64,000 nt of DNA from Epilithonimonas lactis (GTDB lineage: Bacteria > Bacteroidota > Bacteroidia > Flavobacteriales > Weeksellaceae), in contig NZ_FOFI01000004.1 of NCBI RefSeq assembly GCF_900110605.1, positions 62,001-126,000 on the forward strand, given 5' to 3'. Both the position numbers and the translations under genes were made by a program. Below, in pieces: positions 49,789 through 59,739 of the stretch. The notes beneath the pieces were generated by a model that had not been told where the DNA came from, made no database searches, and was given only the letters and a program-made list of their open reading frames with translations. Within the stretch, counting starts at the first letter, position 1. Every line of letters begins with the position of its first letter.

Positions 49789-52134
49789 ATGGAATTCCAA
49801 GCCTTTTACGATAGCCCTTTCAAACTAAAATTATCTTTTGAAAAACTGATCCAGAAAATGGAATCGGAAGCGTTTCAAAATGCAGACTACGCAATTTCTC
49901 ATAAAAATATTCTCGAAAAAGTAAAAGAATTTCCTGAGTTGAGAGATGGCATTACCAATCTCGATTTTTTTGTGGAAAATGAGATCTTGATGAAGGAACT
50001 TTTGAAAGATCTTTTTCCTCAGATGCTTACAAAGAACGAGATCAAGGCCATTGGTTTTCCTTTTTATAATTTCTTTTTCAATCCCACAGAGCGTTTCCAA
50101 AATATCATTGATAAAGCTGGTTCTGACTTCGATATGATCATCAAGGATATGGATCCGCACCGTTTTTATGTGATCAGTTGCTGTATCATCTTACGCAATT
50201 ATTACAAAGTAGATCTCAATTTTGTGCAACCATTTATTTTTGATATTCCCAATGAAGAAGGGATCGTGAACCACTACCGTTTTTTGAACAATGTGGATTT
50301 CATAGACATCAATCCACTGGAAAATGTCAAGAGATTGACAGACGACGAAATTGTGGAACTACTGGACAATTTTGAAGATCATGAGCTTTGGAAAGAAAAA
50401 TTCCCGCTCGAAAGTTGGGAACTCAAGGGTTTTGCGATCATCAGTTTCTTTGATGCCACGACAGAAAATGCGATCTCAAATCTCAAAAGCAAGCTGATCA
50501 ATCTGGAGGATGATAAAAATCTGAAAAGTGAACTCAATACCATTTTCCGTTCGATATTTCAGGTGGCCGACCTAGAAGTTGGTTACACAGCGATAGACCT
50601 CGAGGATAATAAATTCGTGAGAAGTCCGATCAATGGCATCATGGATAGTTTTATCCTGACCTCGGGTCCGAGAGATTGTAAGAATGAAATGCTTTGTGAG
50701 AAAAACTTCAACACGCTCGTAGAATCGAAAAAATACTTCAGTGTTTCCGATGTAGACAGAAGTTTTCAGGAATATCCGGATAGCCAGATGGCGAGACAAC
50801 TGTATGACGCCGGAATCAAAAGTGCGATTTTTGCACCGATCATTAAAGACAAGAAGATCCTTGGAATTGTGGAATTGGTCTCAAAAAAGAAAGCACTGAA
50901 CAGCATCAATGCGAACAAAATGGAAATCGTAATGCCATATCTGGTAGATACGATGGACAGGCTTTACACTGGAATCGAAACGAGAATCGAGGCCATTATT
51001 CAGCGTGAATATACATCCATCCATCCAAGTGTCTATTGGAAATTCCGACAAGAGGCGGAACGTCATATCGGATTTTATAATGAAGAATTTGACCTGCCTT
51101 ACCGAAATATCAGTTTTCAAAATCTAACGCCACTTTTTGGACAGACCGATGTTCGAAATTCTTCGGTTTCCAGAAATTTGGTCATCAAACAAGATTTGGA
51201 GATCCAGTTGGGTTTAATCTCGGAATTAATATCAAAATTCGGTTCAGAAAACGAGCTGGAGGTTTATCAGGATAAACTAAAATATTATCAGGAACTACTC
51301 AAAACAGATATCAAAGCCGACACGGAAAATATTGTTCAATCCTTTATTCTTTCTGAGATCCATCCTTTGTTTGAGTCGATAAAACTTCAAAATATCGACT
51401 ACAACCAATTGGTAACAGATTACTTCAAAAATTTGGATCCGAGAACCAATATGGTCTATGATTTCCGTAGAAAGTTTGATGAGAGTTTATCTTCCATCAA
51501 CAAAAATCTGGCGGATATTCTGGACAAACGTCAGGAAGAGCAACAGGTTCGTTTTCCGTTCTACTATGAGCGATTCAAAACGGATGGCGTAGAGCACAAC
51601 ATGTACATTGGATCATCTATTGCGCCTGCATTGACCTACGATCCTGTATTTCTGAAAAATTTAAGATTATGGCAATTGCGCGTCCTTTGCGAAAGTGAGT
51701 TGCAGTACCACCAATTCCGAAAAAACCTGGAATTTTCTTTGGATGTTTCGTCTCTGATTTTGGTCTACAGCACGCCGATCAGCATCAGATTCCGAATGGA
51801 TGAAAAACGTTTCGATGTGGATGGAAGCTACAATGCACGCTACGAAATGATCAAAAAACGCATCGACAAATCAACGATTAAAAATTCAACGGAAAGAATT
51901 ACGCAGCCTGGAAAGATCAGCATTATTTTTTCTCAGGAAAAAGAAAGACAAGACTATATCAAATTGATAAAAATCCTTCAAGACCAGAAGATTCTGGAAT
52001 CAAATATTGAAGAATTGGAAGTTGAAGACCTTCAGGGAATCAACGGTTTGAAAGCTTTGAGAGTTGGCGTGAATTATGAAGCGGAGGAAGTTGATTATGA
52101 ATTTATAGAAAGTATTAAAAATAATAACGTATAA
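49789..52134 (+). CDS. Large GAF-domain protein without a recognisable output domain
   Basis: A 781-residue soluble protein. The N-terminal 240 residues are helical and unassigned. A GAF domain lies at about 250-400, with GYTAIDLED, IKSAIFAPIIKDKKILGIVELVS typical of GAF strands. The C-terminal half (about 410-781) is helical, then a beta-rich region, without kinase, cyclase or DNA-binding motifs. Similar proteins are found across Flavobacteriia. It stands alone; ligand and partner are unknown. Confidence 0.8.
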   Translation: MEFQAFYDSPFKLKLSFEKLIQKMESEAFQNADYAISHKNILEKVKEFPELRDGITNLDFFVENEILMKELLKDLFPQMLTKNEIKAIGFPFYNFFFNPTERFQNIIDKAGSDFDMIIKDMDPHRFYVISCCIILRNYYKVDLNFVQPFIFDIPNEEGIVNHYRFLNNVDFIDINPLENVKRLTDDEIVELLDNFEDHELWKEKFPLESWELKGFAIISFFDATTENAISNLKSKLINLEDDKNLKSELNTIFRSIFQVADLEVGYTAIDLEDNKFVRSPINGIMDSFILTSGPRDCKNEMLCEKNFNTLVESKKYFSVSDVDRSFQEYPDSQMARQLYDAGIKSAIFAPIIKDKKILGIVELVSKKKALNSINANKMEIVMPYLVDTMDRLYTGIETRIEAIIQREYTSIHPSVYWKFRQEAERHIGFYNEEFDLPYRNISFQNLTPLFGQTDVRNSSVSRNLVIKQDLEIQLGLISELISKFGSENELEVYQDKLKYYQELLKTDIKADTENIVQSFILSEIHPLFESIKLQNIDYNQLVTDYFKNLDPRTNMVYDFRRKFDESLSSINKNLADILDKRQEEQQVRFPFYYERFKTDGVEHNMYIGSSIAPALTYDPVFLKNLRLWQLRVLCESELQYHQFRKNLEFSLDVSSLILVYSTPISIRFRMDEKRFDVDGSYNARYEMIKKRIDKSTIKNSTERITQPGKISIIFSQEKERQDYIKLIKILQDQKILESNIEELEVEDLQGINGLKALRVGVNYEAEEVDYEFIESIKNNNV

Positions 52135-52649: not shown

Positions 52650-53852
52650 TTACATCGTCACATTCCGAAAAGCCACCACAAAAGCAATCACAGAAGCAAT
52701 GATCCCGATTGTGAAAACCGTGTAAGTCAATCTCAATAATTTATATTTTCTGTTCAATACAATTCCCAGATAATAGAGATCTTTGATCATCGTGTCATAA
52801 AGGTATTGTCGGTCGGCCATCATTTCCTTCATTGCCCAGAGATATTCTTCCATCGGCATTTTGTAGAAGTTTCCAAAGAACAATAGGTTTACTTTTTTCT
52901 CCTCAATTTCCTTTCTGGTAAACGTTCCGCTGGACACTTTCGGTCTTGTGGACATGATAGCCAAAATAATACAAGCCACACTCGACATGATCATGACGAA
53001 GGTCGGGATGATCAGGTGAGAATTACTCGGTCCGTCCAATTTTGGGATCAAGGTGGACAATGCGACAGAAATGATGATTGCGTTGACAGAAAGCAGGATA
53101 TTCGCTTTGCTATCAGCAATTTGGCTCAGCTTGGTGTGATTATTCAGCGTCACACGAAACATCGTTTCAATGCCTCTTTCGGGAGATTCCAGCTTTTCGA
53201 GTTTCTTCCTATTCAGAAGCGCTTTGTCCTTGTCCTGACTGGATTTTTCCTTTTTATCTTCTTTTAGATTTTTGATCTTATCAAAGATCTTCTCGGTATT
53301 TTTCTGCTTGATGGGTTGCCAGTTTTCCTGCGCAAATTTGGTGTAAAATTGATGCTTGGCGAAAAAAGCCGTGTTCAGTTCTGCCCACTGTAATTTACTG
53401 AACTTCTGATGATGCACCTCTTTGATCTCCTGTCTTAGGTTTTCACAAACATTGAAATAGTCATCAGACGCCAAATGATAAAGGTCCGCATCCTTGATGA
53501 TATTTTCAAGATGATCAGTAGGTTTATAGAACTTATCAGTTGCCAAAATAAGTTTGCCGATCTTTGCAATTCTGGCTTCGTCCAATTGATGTTCTCTCAA
53601 GAATTCCTCGGCCATTTTTCGGCTTTCTTCCTCGTGATTTTCGCTGTCGTCTATGTAGCCAAGATCGTGGAACCAACCTGCCAAAAGCAGATCTTCCGTA
53701 TCTTCAGCATTTACATGTTCCTCTCGAGCCAGGATTTTGATCTTATCTACAACCTGTATTGTATGGTCAAGATTATGATAAGTATAAACAGAAGATAATC
53801 TATCTTTGAATAAATTTTTAACGTGATCTTCCGAGATTTTCAAAATGTCCAT
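52650..53852 (-). CDS. HD phosphohydrolase fused to a Pycsar-type transmembrane effector (DUF5706)
   Basis: A 400-residue fusion. The N-terminal HD domain (about 1-180) retains its metal motif: His30, His62-Asp63 (GWFHDLGY), His73, and the Asp of DAD (121-123). A charged linker (about 185-225) follows. The C-terminal part (about 228-400) is the PycTM-like DUF5706 module: RVTLNNHTKLSQIADSKANILLSVNAIIISV, a second helix (IIPTFVMIMSSVACIILAI) and a last helix (about 370-395). In Pycsar the effector opens membranes on binding cCMP or cUMP; here no cyclase is nearby. The HD domain could degrade the signal, but that is inference. Confidence 0.82.
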   Translation of the reverse strand: MDILKISEDHVKNLFKDRLSSVYTYHNLDHTIQVVDKIKILAREEHVNAEDTEDLLLAGWFHDLGYIDDSENHEEESRKMAEEFLREHQLDEARIAKIGKLILATDKFYKPTDHLENIIKDADLYHLASDDYFNVCENLRQEIKEVHHQKFSKLQWAELNTAFFAKHQFYTKFAQENWQPIKQKNTEKIFDKIKNLKEDKKEKSSQDKDKALLNRKKLEKLESPERGIETMFRVTLNNHTKLSQIADSKANILLSVNAIIISVALSTLIPKLDGPSNSHLIIPTFVMIMSSVACIILAIMSTRPKVSSGTFTRKEIEEKKVNLLFFGNFYKMPMEEYLWAMKEMMADRQYLYDTMIKDLYYLGIVLNRKYKLLRLTYTVFTIGIIASVIAFVVAFRNVTM

Positions 53853-54095: not shown

Positions 54096-54159
54096 TATTT
54101 TGAAGATGAGTACAAACTTCACGAACTTTGCGTCTAATTTCCACATCAATCAAAAAAAC

Positions 54160-55569
54160 ATGAAACAAATATATCAGATTTATCTTCTAATTCTAATCGC
54201 GCTCACAGCCATTTCCTGCGCTGTTCAGAAAGCAGATTATGGCAAAAATGTGAGATCCTTTGATGTCAATTCCAGTATAAAAGACAGCATCATCCATACC
54301 TTCTATTTGGTTGGCGACGCGGGAAATCTAGATCAAGACGAGGCTTTCCAAAATATGAATGTCTTAAAAGATTCACTTTCCAAAGCTTCCGAAAATAGTA
54401 CACTCATTTTCCTAGGTGATAATATCTATCCAGTTGGAATGCCAAAAAAAGACGATCAGAATAGAAATTTAGCAGAGAAAAAACTCGACAATCAGATTTC
54501 CTTGGCCAATGATTTTGCAGGAAAAACAATCTTTATTCCCGGAAACCACGACTGGTACAACAACGGAATCAAAGGTTTGAAACGCGAAGAAGAGTATGTT
54601 ACAGAAAAACTCAATGATAAATCTGCATTTTCACCTCGCAACGGTTGTCCAATTGAAACGAGAAAGATCAACAAAAAACTGACATTAATTCTCATCGATA
54701 CAGAATGGGTTTTGGCAGACTGGAGCAAGAATCCAGGCATAAACGAAAAGTGCGACCTCAAAACCAGAGAGGATTTCTACACTGAATTTGAAGACCAACT
54801 CAACAAGAATCAAAATAAAACTATTGTGGTTGCCACACACCATCCATTGATCACCCACGGTTCTCACGGCGGCAAATATTCCTGGGAGAAACAAATATTT
54901 CCTTTGGAGGACAGATTTCCATTGCCAGTTTTAGGTTCAATCATCAATTTGACTAGAGCAACCGGCGGAATCACGCATCAGGATATTTCCAATCAGAATT
55001 ACAAAAATTTGGCAGACAGGATCAAAACTTTGATTAGCGGACGCAAAAATGTGGTGGTGGTTTCTGGTCATGATCACAATTTGCAATACATCGAACAAAA
55101 CGATATTCGCCAGATCATCAGCGGAGCAGGCTCCAAAACTGAGGCTGCAAAAGCGACTGGCCGCAATGACTTTTCTTTCGGCAAAAATGGCTATGCCGAA
55201 CTGAAGATCTCAAAATCAGGGAATGCGGAAGTGAGTTTCTACAACCTCGATTCCAAAAGATCTGAATTATTGTTTAGAAAAACAGTTCTAGGAAAAGAAG
55301 AAAAGATTCCCAAAGATTATCCTAAAAATTTCTCTGAATACTCAGAATCATCAATTTACGATTCTGCGATGACGAAGAAAAGCAAATTTTACGAATTCCT
55401 TTGGGGAAAGCATTACAGAGAATATTACTCCAAGAAGATCAATGTTAGAAATCTTGCCTTGGACACACTTTTTGGCGGTGTGAAAACCGATAGAGCAGGA
55501 GGTGGTCATCAAACCAAATCTTTGCGACTGGAAACCAAAGCCGGAAACGAAACGTCATTCGAGCTTTGA
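54160..55569 (+). CDS. Secreted metallophosphoesterase lipoprotein; likely N-terminal half of a split gene
   Basis: About 469 residues from the ATG at 54160 with lipobox TAISC (Cys20). The calcineurin-like phosphatase motifs are present in order: LVGDAGN, FLGDNIYPVG, IPGNHDWY, THHPLITHG and SGHDHNLQY, giving a purple-acid-phosphatase-like dimetal site. After residue about 345 comes a tail that contains the glycine-rich GGGHQTKSLRLE, which looks like the N-lobe of a kinase-like domain continuing in the next gene. The stop TGA at 55567 is within TTGA, and the next frame starts at 55566. A missing T would join the two genes. Confidence 0.82.
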   Translation: MKQIYQIYLLILIALTAISCAVQKADYGKNVRSFDVNSSIKDSIIHTFYLVGDAGNLDQDEAFQNMNVLKDSLSKASENSTLIFLGDNIYPVGMPKKDDQNRNLAEKKLDNQISLANDFAGKTIFIPGNHDWYNNGIKGLKREEEYVTEKLNDKSAFSPRNGCPIETRKINKKLTLILIDTEWVLADWSKNPGINEKCDLKTREDFYTEFEDQLNKNQNKTIVVATHHPLITHGSHGGKYSWEKQIFPLEDRFPLPVLGSIINLTRATGGITHQDISNQNYKNLADRIKTLISGRKNVVVVSGHDHNLQYIEQNDIRQIISGAGSKTEAAKATGRNDFSFGKNGYAELKISKSGNAEVSFYNLDSKRSELLFRKTVLGKEEKIPKDYPKNFSEYSESSIYDSAMTKKSKFYEFLWGKHYREYYSKKINVRNLALDTLFGGVKTDRAGGGHQTKSLRLETKAGNETSFEL

Positions 55570-57836
55570 AAAAAAGTGGCGTTCGATTTTTGCAGTCAGT
55601 GGCTTTTAAAAATCAATATGTGATCGATGATTTTTCAGGAAGTTATGCGGACAAATTCCTTTTGGATTTCTACACGACCTCACATCCGTACACACCTTTG
55701 GTCATCGGAGAAATGTCGGACAAACTGGGAATCCGTCACACAACGCCGCAACTTTTTTATATTCCGAAACAGAAAACCTTAAAGAACTTCAATGAGACTT
55801 TCGGAGACGAATTGTATTATCTGGAGGACCGACCGATGGAAACGGAGGAGAACCCGAACAAAGTTGTTGGAACAGATGAAGTGATCCTGAATCTTGTGAA
55901 AGACGAGAAATATAAGATCGATGAAAAGGCTTGGATCAAAGCACGTTTGTTCGATATGCTGATCGGCGATTGGGACAGACATCACGACCAATGGAAATTT
56001 GAAGCGAGAAAAGAAAATGGAAACGTGATCTACAGCCCAATTCCGAAAGACAGAGATCAAGCGTTTGCAAAATATGACGGTTTCATCACAGAAATCTTAA
56101 TGGAATTTCCGGAACTGAAACATATGCAAACCTTTGACAAAGAGATAGAAAGCGTGAAATGGTTTAACCGTGAGCCTTATCCGTTGGATCTGGTTTTTGC
56201 TAAGAATTCAATTCAGAAAGATTGGTTGAAAGAAGCGGAATTCATTCAAAATAATTTAACTGAAAATGATATTCGCAAGGCTTTTGAAAATTTACCGAAG
56301 GAAATTCAGGACCAGGTTTCGGAAGATCTCATCCAGAAATTATTGATCAGAAAAAGTGACCTTCAGAAATACGCATCACAATATTATAAGGTCTTGCAGG
56401 AAAAGGTGATTCTTACAGGAACCGATAAAAAAGACAAATTTGTCATCACAAGATTGCCAAACGATCAAACGGAAATCAAGATCTTCAGATTGAAAAAATC
56501 CGGCGAGGAATTGGCTTCATCCAAGATCTATCCTGGCGAAGTTACCAAAGAGATTTTGCTTTACGGGTTGGATGATGATGACGAATTTGTAGTGCAAGGC
56601 AACAACAAAACAAGCATCAGGATTGAACTTTTGGGTGGTTTGGACAATGACAAATATTCGGTCTCAAATTCCAAAAAAGTGAAGATCTACGACTACAAAA
56701 GCAAGAAGAATGATTTTGAGAATAAAGGCAGTGCAAGAGTAAAGTTGACCGATGATTACGACATCAACCAATACAATTATCGAAATCCGAAGTACAACGT
56801 TTTTACCACGTATATGAATTTCAATTTCAATCCGGATGATGCTTTGGCAATTGGTTTCAATGCAGATTATACGGTGAATGATTTTATCAAAAAACCATAT
56901 TCCCAGAAACACCATTTCTTAGCGAATTATTTCACCGGAACTGAAGGTTATGAGTTCGCTTACCAAGGCTTGTTTCCTACGCTGACAGGCGGCTGGTTCT
57001 ATGGTCTGGACACGAGAGTGACCAGTTCGCATTACATCCGAAATTTCTATGGAATCGGAAATGAGACCATTAATCCAAAAAATGAGTTTGGAACGCGTTT
57101 TAATAATGTAAGAGCGCGTGAATTTGCGTTTTCTCCTTCCATTAACTGGAACAAAAACGCAGCAACTTTCTCCGCAAAGCTGAAATATGAGATCCTTGAG
57201 ATTGCCAAAACGGCCGACCGTTATATTTCTTTGCCTGGCGTTGTGAACGAAGATGTTTTCAATGCAAAACAATTTGGAGGTGCCGATGTTTCTTTCATTT
57301 ATGAAAATTACGACAACAAAGCGAATCCAAAGTTGGGAATGAAATTCGATGTGAGAGCGGTTTACAATATCAATCTTCAAAATACGGACAGACAGTTTAC
57401 ATCATTCGAAACCGGACTTGGTTTTCTCCATTATTTGACGCAAGACCAGAAATTAGTTTGGTCATCTTATGCCAAGGCAAAATGGCTTCTAGGAAACGAT
57501 TATGAGTTCTATCAAATGTCAACCTTAGGTGGAAATACAGATTTGCGTGGCTTTCGTTTCAACCGTTTTTATGGGAAAAATTCCTTCTATCAAAGTTCTG
57601 ATCTGAGATATGAAGTGGGGAAAATCAAGAACTCGATCCTACCTTTGACGTATGGATTTTTTGGTGGATTTGATGTTGGAAGGGTTTGGGTGCCGAATGA
57701 GCATTCCAACAAATGGCACAACTCATACGGTGGTGGATTTTGGCTAAATGCCGTGGATGCAATCTCTGCAAATGTCTCCTATTTTACATCGTCCGACGGT
57801 GGAAGATTGGTTATTGGAATTGGCGGAACTTTTTAA
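55566..57836 (+). CDS. Kinase-like domain plus BamA/TamA-type barrel; likely C-terminal half of a split gene
   Basis: A 756-residue reading frame beginning at a TTG that overlaps the phosphatase stop codon by 4 bases. Residues about 1-260 carry GDWDRHHDQW (134-143) and PKDRDQAF (161-168), an arrangement resembling the catalytic DRHH and metal-binding motifs of secreted FAM20/CotH-type kinases. From about 390 onward, alternating beta strands and a GGFDVGRVW/YGGGFWLNAVDAISANVSYF end, with final GIGGTF, fit a surface-antigen outer-membrane barrel. The frame break lies in the kinase N-lobe, so a full-length ancestor of about 1225 residues is likely. No independent signal peptide exists for this half. 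Confidence 0.72.
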   Translation: MKKSGVRFLQSVAFKNQYVIDDFSGSYADKFLLDFYTTSHPYTPLVIGEMSDKLGIRHTTPQLFYIPKQKTLKNFNETFGDELYYLEDRPMETEENPNKVVGTDEVILNLVKDEKYKIDEKAWIKARLFDMLIGDWDRHHDQWKFEARKENGNVIYSPIPKDRDQAFAKYDGFITEILMEFPELKHMQTFDKEIESVKWFNREPYPLDLVFAKNSIQKDWLKEAEFIQNNLTENDIRKAFENLPKEIQDQVSEDLIQKLLIRKSDLQKYASQYYKVLQEKVILTGTDKKDKFVITRLPNDQTEIKIFRLKKSGEELASSKIYPGEVTKEILLYGLDDDDEFVVQGNNKTSIRIELLGGLDNDKYSVSNSKKVKIYDYKSKKNDFENKGSARVKLTDDYDINQYNYRNPKYNVFTTYMNFNFNPDDALAIGFNADYTVNDFIKKPYSQKHHFLANYFTGTEGYEFAYQGLFPTLTGGWFYGLDTRVTSSHYIRNFYGIGNETINPKNEFGTRFNNVRAREFAFSPSINWNKNAATFSAKLKYEILEIAKTADRYISLPGVVNEDVFNAKQFGGADVSFIYENYDNKANPKLGMKFDVRAVYNINLQNTDRQFTSFETGLGFLHYLTQDQKLVWSSYAKAKWLLGNDYEFYQMSTLGGNTDLRGFRFNRFYGKNSFYQSSDLRYEVGKIKNSILPLTYGFFGGFDVGRVWVPNEHSNKWHNSYGGGFWLNAVDAISANVSYFTSSDGGRLVIGIGGTF

Positions 57837-58878: not shown

Positions 58879-59739
58879 TTATTTCAGCTTCAACTGATAG
58901 AGATTTCCCGTAATTTTCTTATCACCTTCATCTGTCATCAGGATTGTATTTTCATCTTTGAAACAAAGGCCTTCCTTCTGGGTGTGGTGATTCAGCTCAA
59001 TTTTTTCGACATCTCCGGAAAAGAAATTGTCACCTTTCCAATTGGTGAAAATCCAAACTTTATCGGAACTCAAGATTGCAACTTTATCCTTGTCTGGACT
59101 GATGTCGGCGCTCGTCACCGCACAATGATTGAACTGGTCGCAAGTCACAAAACTTCCAAGTTTCTTAGCTGGTAGTTTCTGAAGTGGGTTATTTTCAACT
59201 TCGTAAAGGACGGTCGTTCCATCAAATTTTGAACTTCTGTTTTTTGTGAACAGATAGAATTTGTTTTTAAAAATAAAGAACGATTCTACATCAAAGATCC
59301 TATCTTTTTTCTTTGGTGGAAATTCCGTCTGCTCAGGATAATAAAATTCAACGATGAACTGTGCTTTTGCTTCGTCCTTATTCAAGTCTGCTGCATTGAT
59401 TTTATAGATGGCAAGATTTTGTCGGTCGTTATCATTATTTCCAAAATCGCCGATGTAAATGTTTCCTTCGTCATCAGAGGTGAGATCTTCCCAATCATTA
59501 TTTTCAACATTTGTGATAGTGATCTGTTTTACCAATTCACCTTTTTCATTGAACCCGAAAAGAATATTGTGGTTGTGATTATCCTCAATGGTCCAGATCA
59601 AGGGCGACGCTTTTGAGATTTCTGCAGCAGATGCTTCTTTTATTTTTTTTGGTAATGAGGCGATGGTAGAAAAATTTTCCTGCGTTTGAGAACAAGAAAA
59701 TGTGATCGATAGTAAGGCTAAGAAGGAAAATACTTTCAT
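58879..59739 (-). CDS. Propeller-like lipoprotein, paralogue of the 47559 protein
   Basis: A 286-residue lipoprotein; the lipobox is ITFSC (Cys16). The motifs NDWEDLTSDDEGNIYIGDFGNN, YYPEQTEFPPKKKDRIFDVESFF and FYLFTKNRSS recur in the protein at 47559-48437, pointing to a duplicated family. A propeller-like fold is inferred. It faces queA across a hairpin terminator. Its function is unknown. Confidence 0.75.
   Translation of the reverse strand: MKVFSFLALLSITFSCSQTQENFSTIASLPKKIKEASAAEISKASPLIWTIEDNHNHNILFGFNEKGELVKQITITNVENNDWEDLTSDDEGNIYIGDFGNNDNDRQNLAIYKINAADLNKDEAKAQFIVEFYYPEQTEFPPKKKDRIFDVESFFIFKNKFYLFTKNRSSKFDGTTVLYEVENNPLQKLPAKKLGSFVTCDQFNHCAVTSADISPDKDKVAILSSDKVWIFTNWKGDNFFSGDVEKIELNHHTQKEGLCFKDENTILMTDEGDKKITGNLYQLKLK

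Follow-up and report, generated by a model that had tools for sequence, protein, structure and literature searches.

Known bacterial kinases are almost all cytoplasmic, where ATP is. In the outer membrane, the closest described system to the gene considered here is the 'Metallo' subfamily named by Heinz and Lithgow in 2014, in which a PF00149 domain, there called a metalloprotease, is fused to an Omp85 barrel; Omp85 types without POTRA domains also exist (PMC4104836). We analyzed 64,000 nucleotides of Epilithonimonas lactis DNA (contig NZ_FOFI01000004.1, positions 62,001 to 126,000), referred to here as the window, and describe a locus within it (54160-57836) whose protein is almost certainly of the same kind as 'Metallo'. 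In this case, comparison with relatives indicates that the locus is one gene split by a single-base deletion in the assembly, which is either a mutation of very recent origin or an error in the sequence. As a feature of the window, the split is an ordinary one-base frameshift. The intact gene is of wider interest, since a predicted protein kinase-like (PKL) domain lies between its phosphatase and its barrel.

The gene is intact in every relative in which its full length could be read. A preliminary description made from the window had recognized two overlapping frames with a glycine-rich segment and the motifs GDWDRHHDQW and PKDRDQAF, all of which are present in the frames given, and had proposed that loss of one base divides a single gene of about 1225 residues. 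Relatives were searched with frame 2 and with frame 1, and L020, which is cut by its contig end, was left out of the length count. All 28 remaining copies, from 27 genomes, are single frames of 1223-1280 codons, and 20 of them belong to the same genus as the source, which bears out the proposal. One close relative (L032) has 94% identity over frame 2. The gene is absent from two same-genus genomes of 2.6-2.7 Mb, and therefore appears to be dispensable in some settings; the source genome has no copy other than the broken one.

Codon-by-codon comparison locates the break precisely. Relatives read GNE-YVIRALKKSGVRF at this site, and the window agrees with them in frame 1 as far as the codon whose last base is 55551, and from 55554 onward in frame 2. 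The final five residues of frame 1 (TSFEL) are already out of frame, and the frame of similarity to relatives switches 12-15 nt ahead of the frame 1 stop. Frame 1 starts at the ATG at 54160, with a TTG at 54100 as a possible alternative upstream start, while frame 2, listed as 55566-57836 and so overlapping frame 1 by four bases, is open already from about 55494. The preliminary description had placed the lesion at CTTTGA beside a run of T and A (55561-55580). This placement was ruled out by the codon comparison with relatives, in which the CTTTGA/A7 run is intact and in frame, about 15 nt downstream of the lesion.

An alignment of approximately 16 kb of synteny to another relative (G014) served as the comparison for other frameshifts around the locus, and the gap just after 55551 is the only frame-changing gap in its coding DNA. 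Substitutions by codon position against this relative number 20/9/101 upstream of the break and 13/5/100 downstream, so that 101 of 130 and 100 of 118, respectively, fall at third positions. This bias on both sides implies that selection at the protein level was still acting on both halves in the very recent past, and that the lesion is therefore either very recent or an assembly error. That the break is a sequencing or assembly artefact, with the whole gene present in the organism, comes close to an even chance: the pattern of purifying selection runs undisturbed across it, the closest relative is whole, and it is the sole coding frameshift in the syntenic stretch, but the missing base lies outside any homopolymer, the usual error context, and the assembly is good (4.09 Mb, 14 contigs, 100% complete). 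A genuine arrangement of two cistrons or a programmed frameshift, with translational coupling at TTGA as the preliminary description had entertained, is highly improbable. The four-base overlap would suit it, but no relative has two genes, similarity changes frame before the stop is reached, and a frame 2 product by itself would have no export signal and would miss the opening N-lobe strands of the kinase-like domain. A programmed frameshift was rejected because no slippery heptamer occurs in the frame overlap.

Read as one gene, the locus encodes a lipoprotein with, in order, a phosphatase, a PKL domain, a beta linker, and a 16-strand Omp85 barrel, with a predicted mature form of approximately 1200 residues; Pfam, fold matches, and a full-length model agree with the order given in the preliminary description. 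Mature N-termini begin with Cys in all 96 that could be read, typically as CAT or CAV. The surface-export signal (LES) of Bacteroidetes is K-(D/E)2 or Q-A-(D/E)2 (PMC5080379), and none of the 96 has an acidic pair at +2 to +6, so that they do not resemble surface lipoproteins. PF00149 matches frame 1 with an E value of 5.8e-10. Five metal-ligand motifs (GDxG, GDN, GNHD, H-H, and GHxH) are invariant in 31 orthologues and all are present in the window, as GDAG (54313), GDN (54415), GNHD (54541), HHP (54838), and GHDH (55066). This domain has tartrate-resistant and purple acid phosphatase matches in the PDB, and GAP50 matches by fold. The barrel matches PF03865 above its cut-off (E 5.9e-6) and NF047779 below its cut-off (E 1.8e-12), with Sam50 (1.5e-10), TamA (6.7e-10), and BamA among its Foldseek matches. 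The full-length model of the L032 orthologue (pTM 0.83) has 16 barrel strands, which together with the conserved L6 motif (V/I/L)RG(F/Y) are the defining features of the Omp85 superfamily. POTRA domains are lacking in this model, where the phosphatase, PKL domain, and beta linker stand in their place.

The middle domain, of about 350 residues, has no Pfam or NCBIfam family match, and a single-sequence PDB search also returned no match. Structure prediction supports a kinase-like domain in the group of CtkA/HipA, CotH, and PI4KII. Modeling of an intact orthologue, using 44 sequences (pLDDT 89.2, pTM 0.88), predicts a two-lobe PKL fold, and the highest-ranking Foldseek matches to this model are without exception kinases (CtkA 7.7e-6, HipA 2.9e-4, Rio2 4.9e-4). 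VIA-align gave PI4KII beta (Z 14.9, 245 residues, 3.9 A), CotH (5jd9; Z 14.7, 253 residues, 4.0 A), and CtkA (Z 13.4, 229 residues, 4.2 A), where Z differences under 1 are ties. A hidden Markov model (HMM) of the domain matched CtkA with E 0.053, setting DRHxDQW against GNFDRHNGNW, and an HH alignment to CotH was weak (P 0.011) but collinear at GDWDRH/GSWDDY and PRDRDQAF/PYDYDNSF. In the window, the G-loop GGGHQT is at 55498, the catalytic-loop motif GDWDRHHDQW at 55965-55994, and the DFG-like PKDRDQAF at 56043-56066. Numbered by an alignment of 99 members below 85% identity, GGGxQ (40-44), R61, K65, E149, D203-W-D205-R-H, Q210, and D230-R-D232 are near invariant, with D205 retained in 95 of the 99, D230 in 97, and D232 in 96.

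The preliminary description had suggested a FAM20/CotH-type kinase. The kinase-like fold was upheld by the predicted structure, with CotH among the nearest structures alongside CtkA/HipA and PI4KII, but the likeness to the FAM20 secretory-pathway kinases extends only to sub-threshold sequence matches. No match to PF06702 (FAM20) was above the Pfam cut-off in 296 genomes, and the two sub-threshold HMM matches (E 5e-4) both lie inside paralogues of the PKL-domain family; FAM20 is not among the VIA-align matches listed, which excludes nothing. The CotH family PF08757 had no match in the 44 PKL-domain members, and the HipA_C family profile PF07804 did not match the domain. A weak FAM198 match (E 0.037, one member) and HDAC6 matches (E 0.05) were not used as evidence.

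Of the 296 Bacteroidota genomes sampled, 111 (more than one-third) have the PKL domain, as do 61 of 140 genera. Its 136 frames comprise 80 of at least 1190 codons, 41 of 800-1189, one of 740, and 14 below 600. Thirteen regions with short forms were read. Some forms lack the phosphatase and consist of a signal peptide, kinase-like domain, linker, and barrel (e.g. L152 and L156), some are lipoproteins with kinase-like domain and linker that lack the barrel (L148, L149, and L150), and in others the kinase-like domain is alone and membrane-anchored (L146 and L147). At L148:2449-6501, three consecutive genes encode the kinase-like domain with linker, the phosphatase, and the barrel, which as a gene arrangement is good evidence that the fused domains work together. 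Every short form sampled has at its start what looks like an export signal, a lipobox, or a membrane anchor, and the family therefore seems to function outside the cytoplasm. Lipoprotein kinase-like genes are clustered in twos or threes, in tandem or divergently, at L149:4436-7775 and L150:2129-7148; in each cluster, DRH is changed to SRR in one copy, suggesting active/pseudokinase pairs. A full-length member from a Flavobacterium metagenome-assembled genome (L084:3214-6948) has altered G-loop, DRH, and DRD motifs and is probably a pseudokinase that has kept the fused architecture. In two genomes, a CotH-family gene is located no more than about 2.5 kb from the kinase-like/barrel gene (G126:C10:20517-24674 and G077:C15:16534-19900).

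The best explanation overall, which we hold with evenly balanced confidence, is a broken gene whose intact product is a phospho-transfer and phosphatase module at the periplasmic face of the outer membrane, carried on an Omp85 barrel. The lipid anchor and both soluble domains would lie on that face, where other Omp85 proteins carry POTRA domains, a placement inferred from the absence of an LES after the lipid-bearing Cys and from Omp85 topology. The PKL domain may add a phosphate or nucleotide group to an envelope substrate at the outer membrane, with a protein or a phospho-lipid or lipopolysaccharide (LPS) head group as candidates. The phosphoesterase would take off the group so added, and the barrel would anchor the module or couple it to outer-membrane assembly. 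In the source genome, frame 1 could still yield a lipid-anchored phosphatase, and the frame 2 product should be inert because it would lack an export signal and a complete N-lobe.

Several observations weigh against this explanation. The chief difficulty is that ATP is normally unavailable in the periplasm; a different donor or a released nucleotide might serve, or the fold might have a use other than as a kinase. Profile-profile probabilities are low (CotH 4%, HipA 0.4%), which leaves the predicted fold and the order of the motifs as the main basis for calling the domain kinase-like. The beta-3 Lys position is held by the invariant Arg (R61), with K65 four residues further on, and the catalytic-loop Asn is replaced by Gln, which make kinase activity uncertain; from its motifs and modeled fold, such activity is plausible. 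In L084 and L151 several active-site residues are lost together, giving pseudoenzyme forms.

The main rival for function draws on the same facts. If the PKL domain were a catalytically dead scaffold, it would, with the phosphatase, take the place of POTRA domains in an Omp85 protein serving as insertase or lipid transporter, and bind substrates or partners there. The two active-site replacements, the lack of periplasmic ATP, the members that have lost motifs, and the usual service of Omp85 barrels in assembly or transport (PMC4104836) would all fit, but D205, D230, D232, GGG, and Q44 are conserved to a degree well beyond the needs of a scaffold, and residues lost jointly in L084 and L151 are what is expected of one active site. 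We consider a dead scaffold rather doubtful. It is unlikely, too, that the protein is a lipid or LPS enzyme, with outer-membrane lipid head groups phosphorylated by the PKL domain and trimmed by the phosphatase, and lipids transported by the barrel in the way suggested for TamA-like proteins. The best structural matches include a membrane-bound lipid kinase (PI4KII) for the PKL domain and TamA for the barrel, and the predicted location is lipid-anchored and membrane-proximal; yet the protein kinase CotH scores the same as PI4KII, the fold does not tell the substrate, and no lipid-metabolism gene was recognized among the conserved neighbors.

Returning to the phospho-transfer and phosphatase module, it is possible, and proposed here tentatively, that Bacteroidota have a widespread, unrecognized family of exported PKL enzymes that work in the periplasm and in many cases share one polypeptide with an Omp85 barrel and a phosphatase of opposing action. 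Such a protein would be a self-contained device for phosphorylation and dephosphorylation at the outer membrane, needing a periplasmic phosphate donor. If true, a PKL domain outside the inner membrane, beside a phosphatase on an Omp85 barrel, would be a new site of bacterial phospho-chemistry.

Table 1. Features of the split gene and its conserved neighbors, in window coordinates.
Feature	Position	Strand	Evidence
HD phosphohydrolase with PycTM (PF18967; Pycsar effector-type membrane domain), divergent neighbor	52650..53852	-	Adjoins gene in 64/78 loci
Frame 1: lipoprotein signal, metallophosphoesterase, and first kinase-like N-lobe strands; premature end	54160..55569	+	Open reading frame (ORF) list, Pfam, relatives
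Signal peptide of lipoprotein type MKQIYQIYLLILIALTAISC, including lipobox; mature protein begins CAVQKADYGK; surface export signal absent	54160..54219	+	Comparison of N-termini; LES definition (PMC5080379)
Purple-acid-phosphatase-like metallophosphoesterase, outer limit approximate	54298..55300	+	PF00149 over 54298-54888
Predicted PKL domain, cut by frameshift	55405..56402	+	Orthologue model, Foldseek, VIA-align, conservation in 99 members
Frame 2: open frame, 780 codons; ORF listed from TTG at 55566	55494..57836	+	ORF list, codon comparison
Frameshift site, one base short of all relatives compared	55551..55554	+	Codon comparison with relatives, DNA alignment to G014
Beta-rich linker between kinase-like domain and barrel	56403..56786	+	Full-length orthologue model; accompanies kinase-like domain in shorter proteins
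16-strand Omp85-type barrel, L6 motif LRGFR at 57543	56799..57833	+	HMM matches, model, fold matches
Lipoprotein, convergent downstream neighbor; no Pfam family above threshold	58879..59739	-	Kept in 63/78 loci

Neighbors were counted over 78 loci with full flanks (Table 1). In some distant relatives the HD-PycTM gene is instead downstream and on the same strand, as in L027, L028, and L030. The lipoprotein at 58879-59739 is perhaps a beta-propeller. In many Flavobacteriia loci the HD-PycTM gene is in turn adjoined by a gene whose 781-aa product matches no NCBIfam family above threshold (49789-52134, plus strand, in the window).

No earlier literature mention of the kinase-like domain was found in a search that did not extend to KINtaro, which lists 72 PKL families (PMC10870513) and where prior cataloguing is possible. 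A Riemerella metallophosphoesterase (Niu 2021), listed in a review of the type IX secretion system (T9SS) as a T9SS effector, is probably a different protein. Intact orthologues share with 'Metallo' the order of PF00149 followed by an Omp85 barrel, spread over two frames in the window. Unlike the proteins here, the text on 'Metallo' (PMC4104836) is without the word kinase and does not describe the kinase-like domain, the lipobox, or the phosphatase-less forms. The architecture had been called remarkable in the preliminary description, which holds for the kinase-like domain; the fusion itself is not rare, being widespread in Bacteroidota, and the pairing of phosphatase and barrel within it has been known since 2014. 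What is added is a correction of the 'metalloprotease' label of the PF00149 part to phosphatase, and a PKL family absent from both Pfam and NCBIfam.

Other known systems resemble parts of the protein. CotH (PF08757; 5jd9 and 5jda) shares the predicted PKL fold and collinear motifs, but the domain described here differs in its glycine loop and N-lobe, in lacking a Pfam match, and in being fused to a phosphatase and barrel. CtkA/HipA (3akj-3akl, PF07804) gave the best Foldseek E values and share the DRHxxxW catalytic-loop pattern. Those proteins are cytoplasmic or secreted, as single-domain enzymes or parts of toxin-antitoxin systems, whereas the window-type protein would be exported and membrane-anchored, with Arg for Lys and Gln for Asn. 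PI4KII enzymes, also alike in predicted fold, are eukaryotic lipid kinases of the cytosolic face with approximately 10% identity. Closest in placement are the TamL/Omp85 lipoproteins of Bacteroidota (PMC12045153), which are likewise lipid-anchored, with a soluble N-terminal part predicted to be periplasmic, but which have POTRA domains where the window-type protein has a phosphatase and a kinase-like domain. Set beside these systems, the family is a known phosphatase-Omp85 fusion joined to an unrecognized, widespread, exported kinase-like domain.

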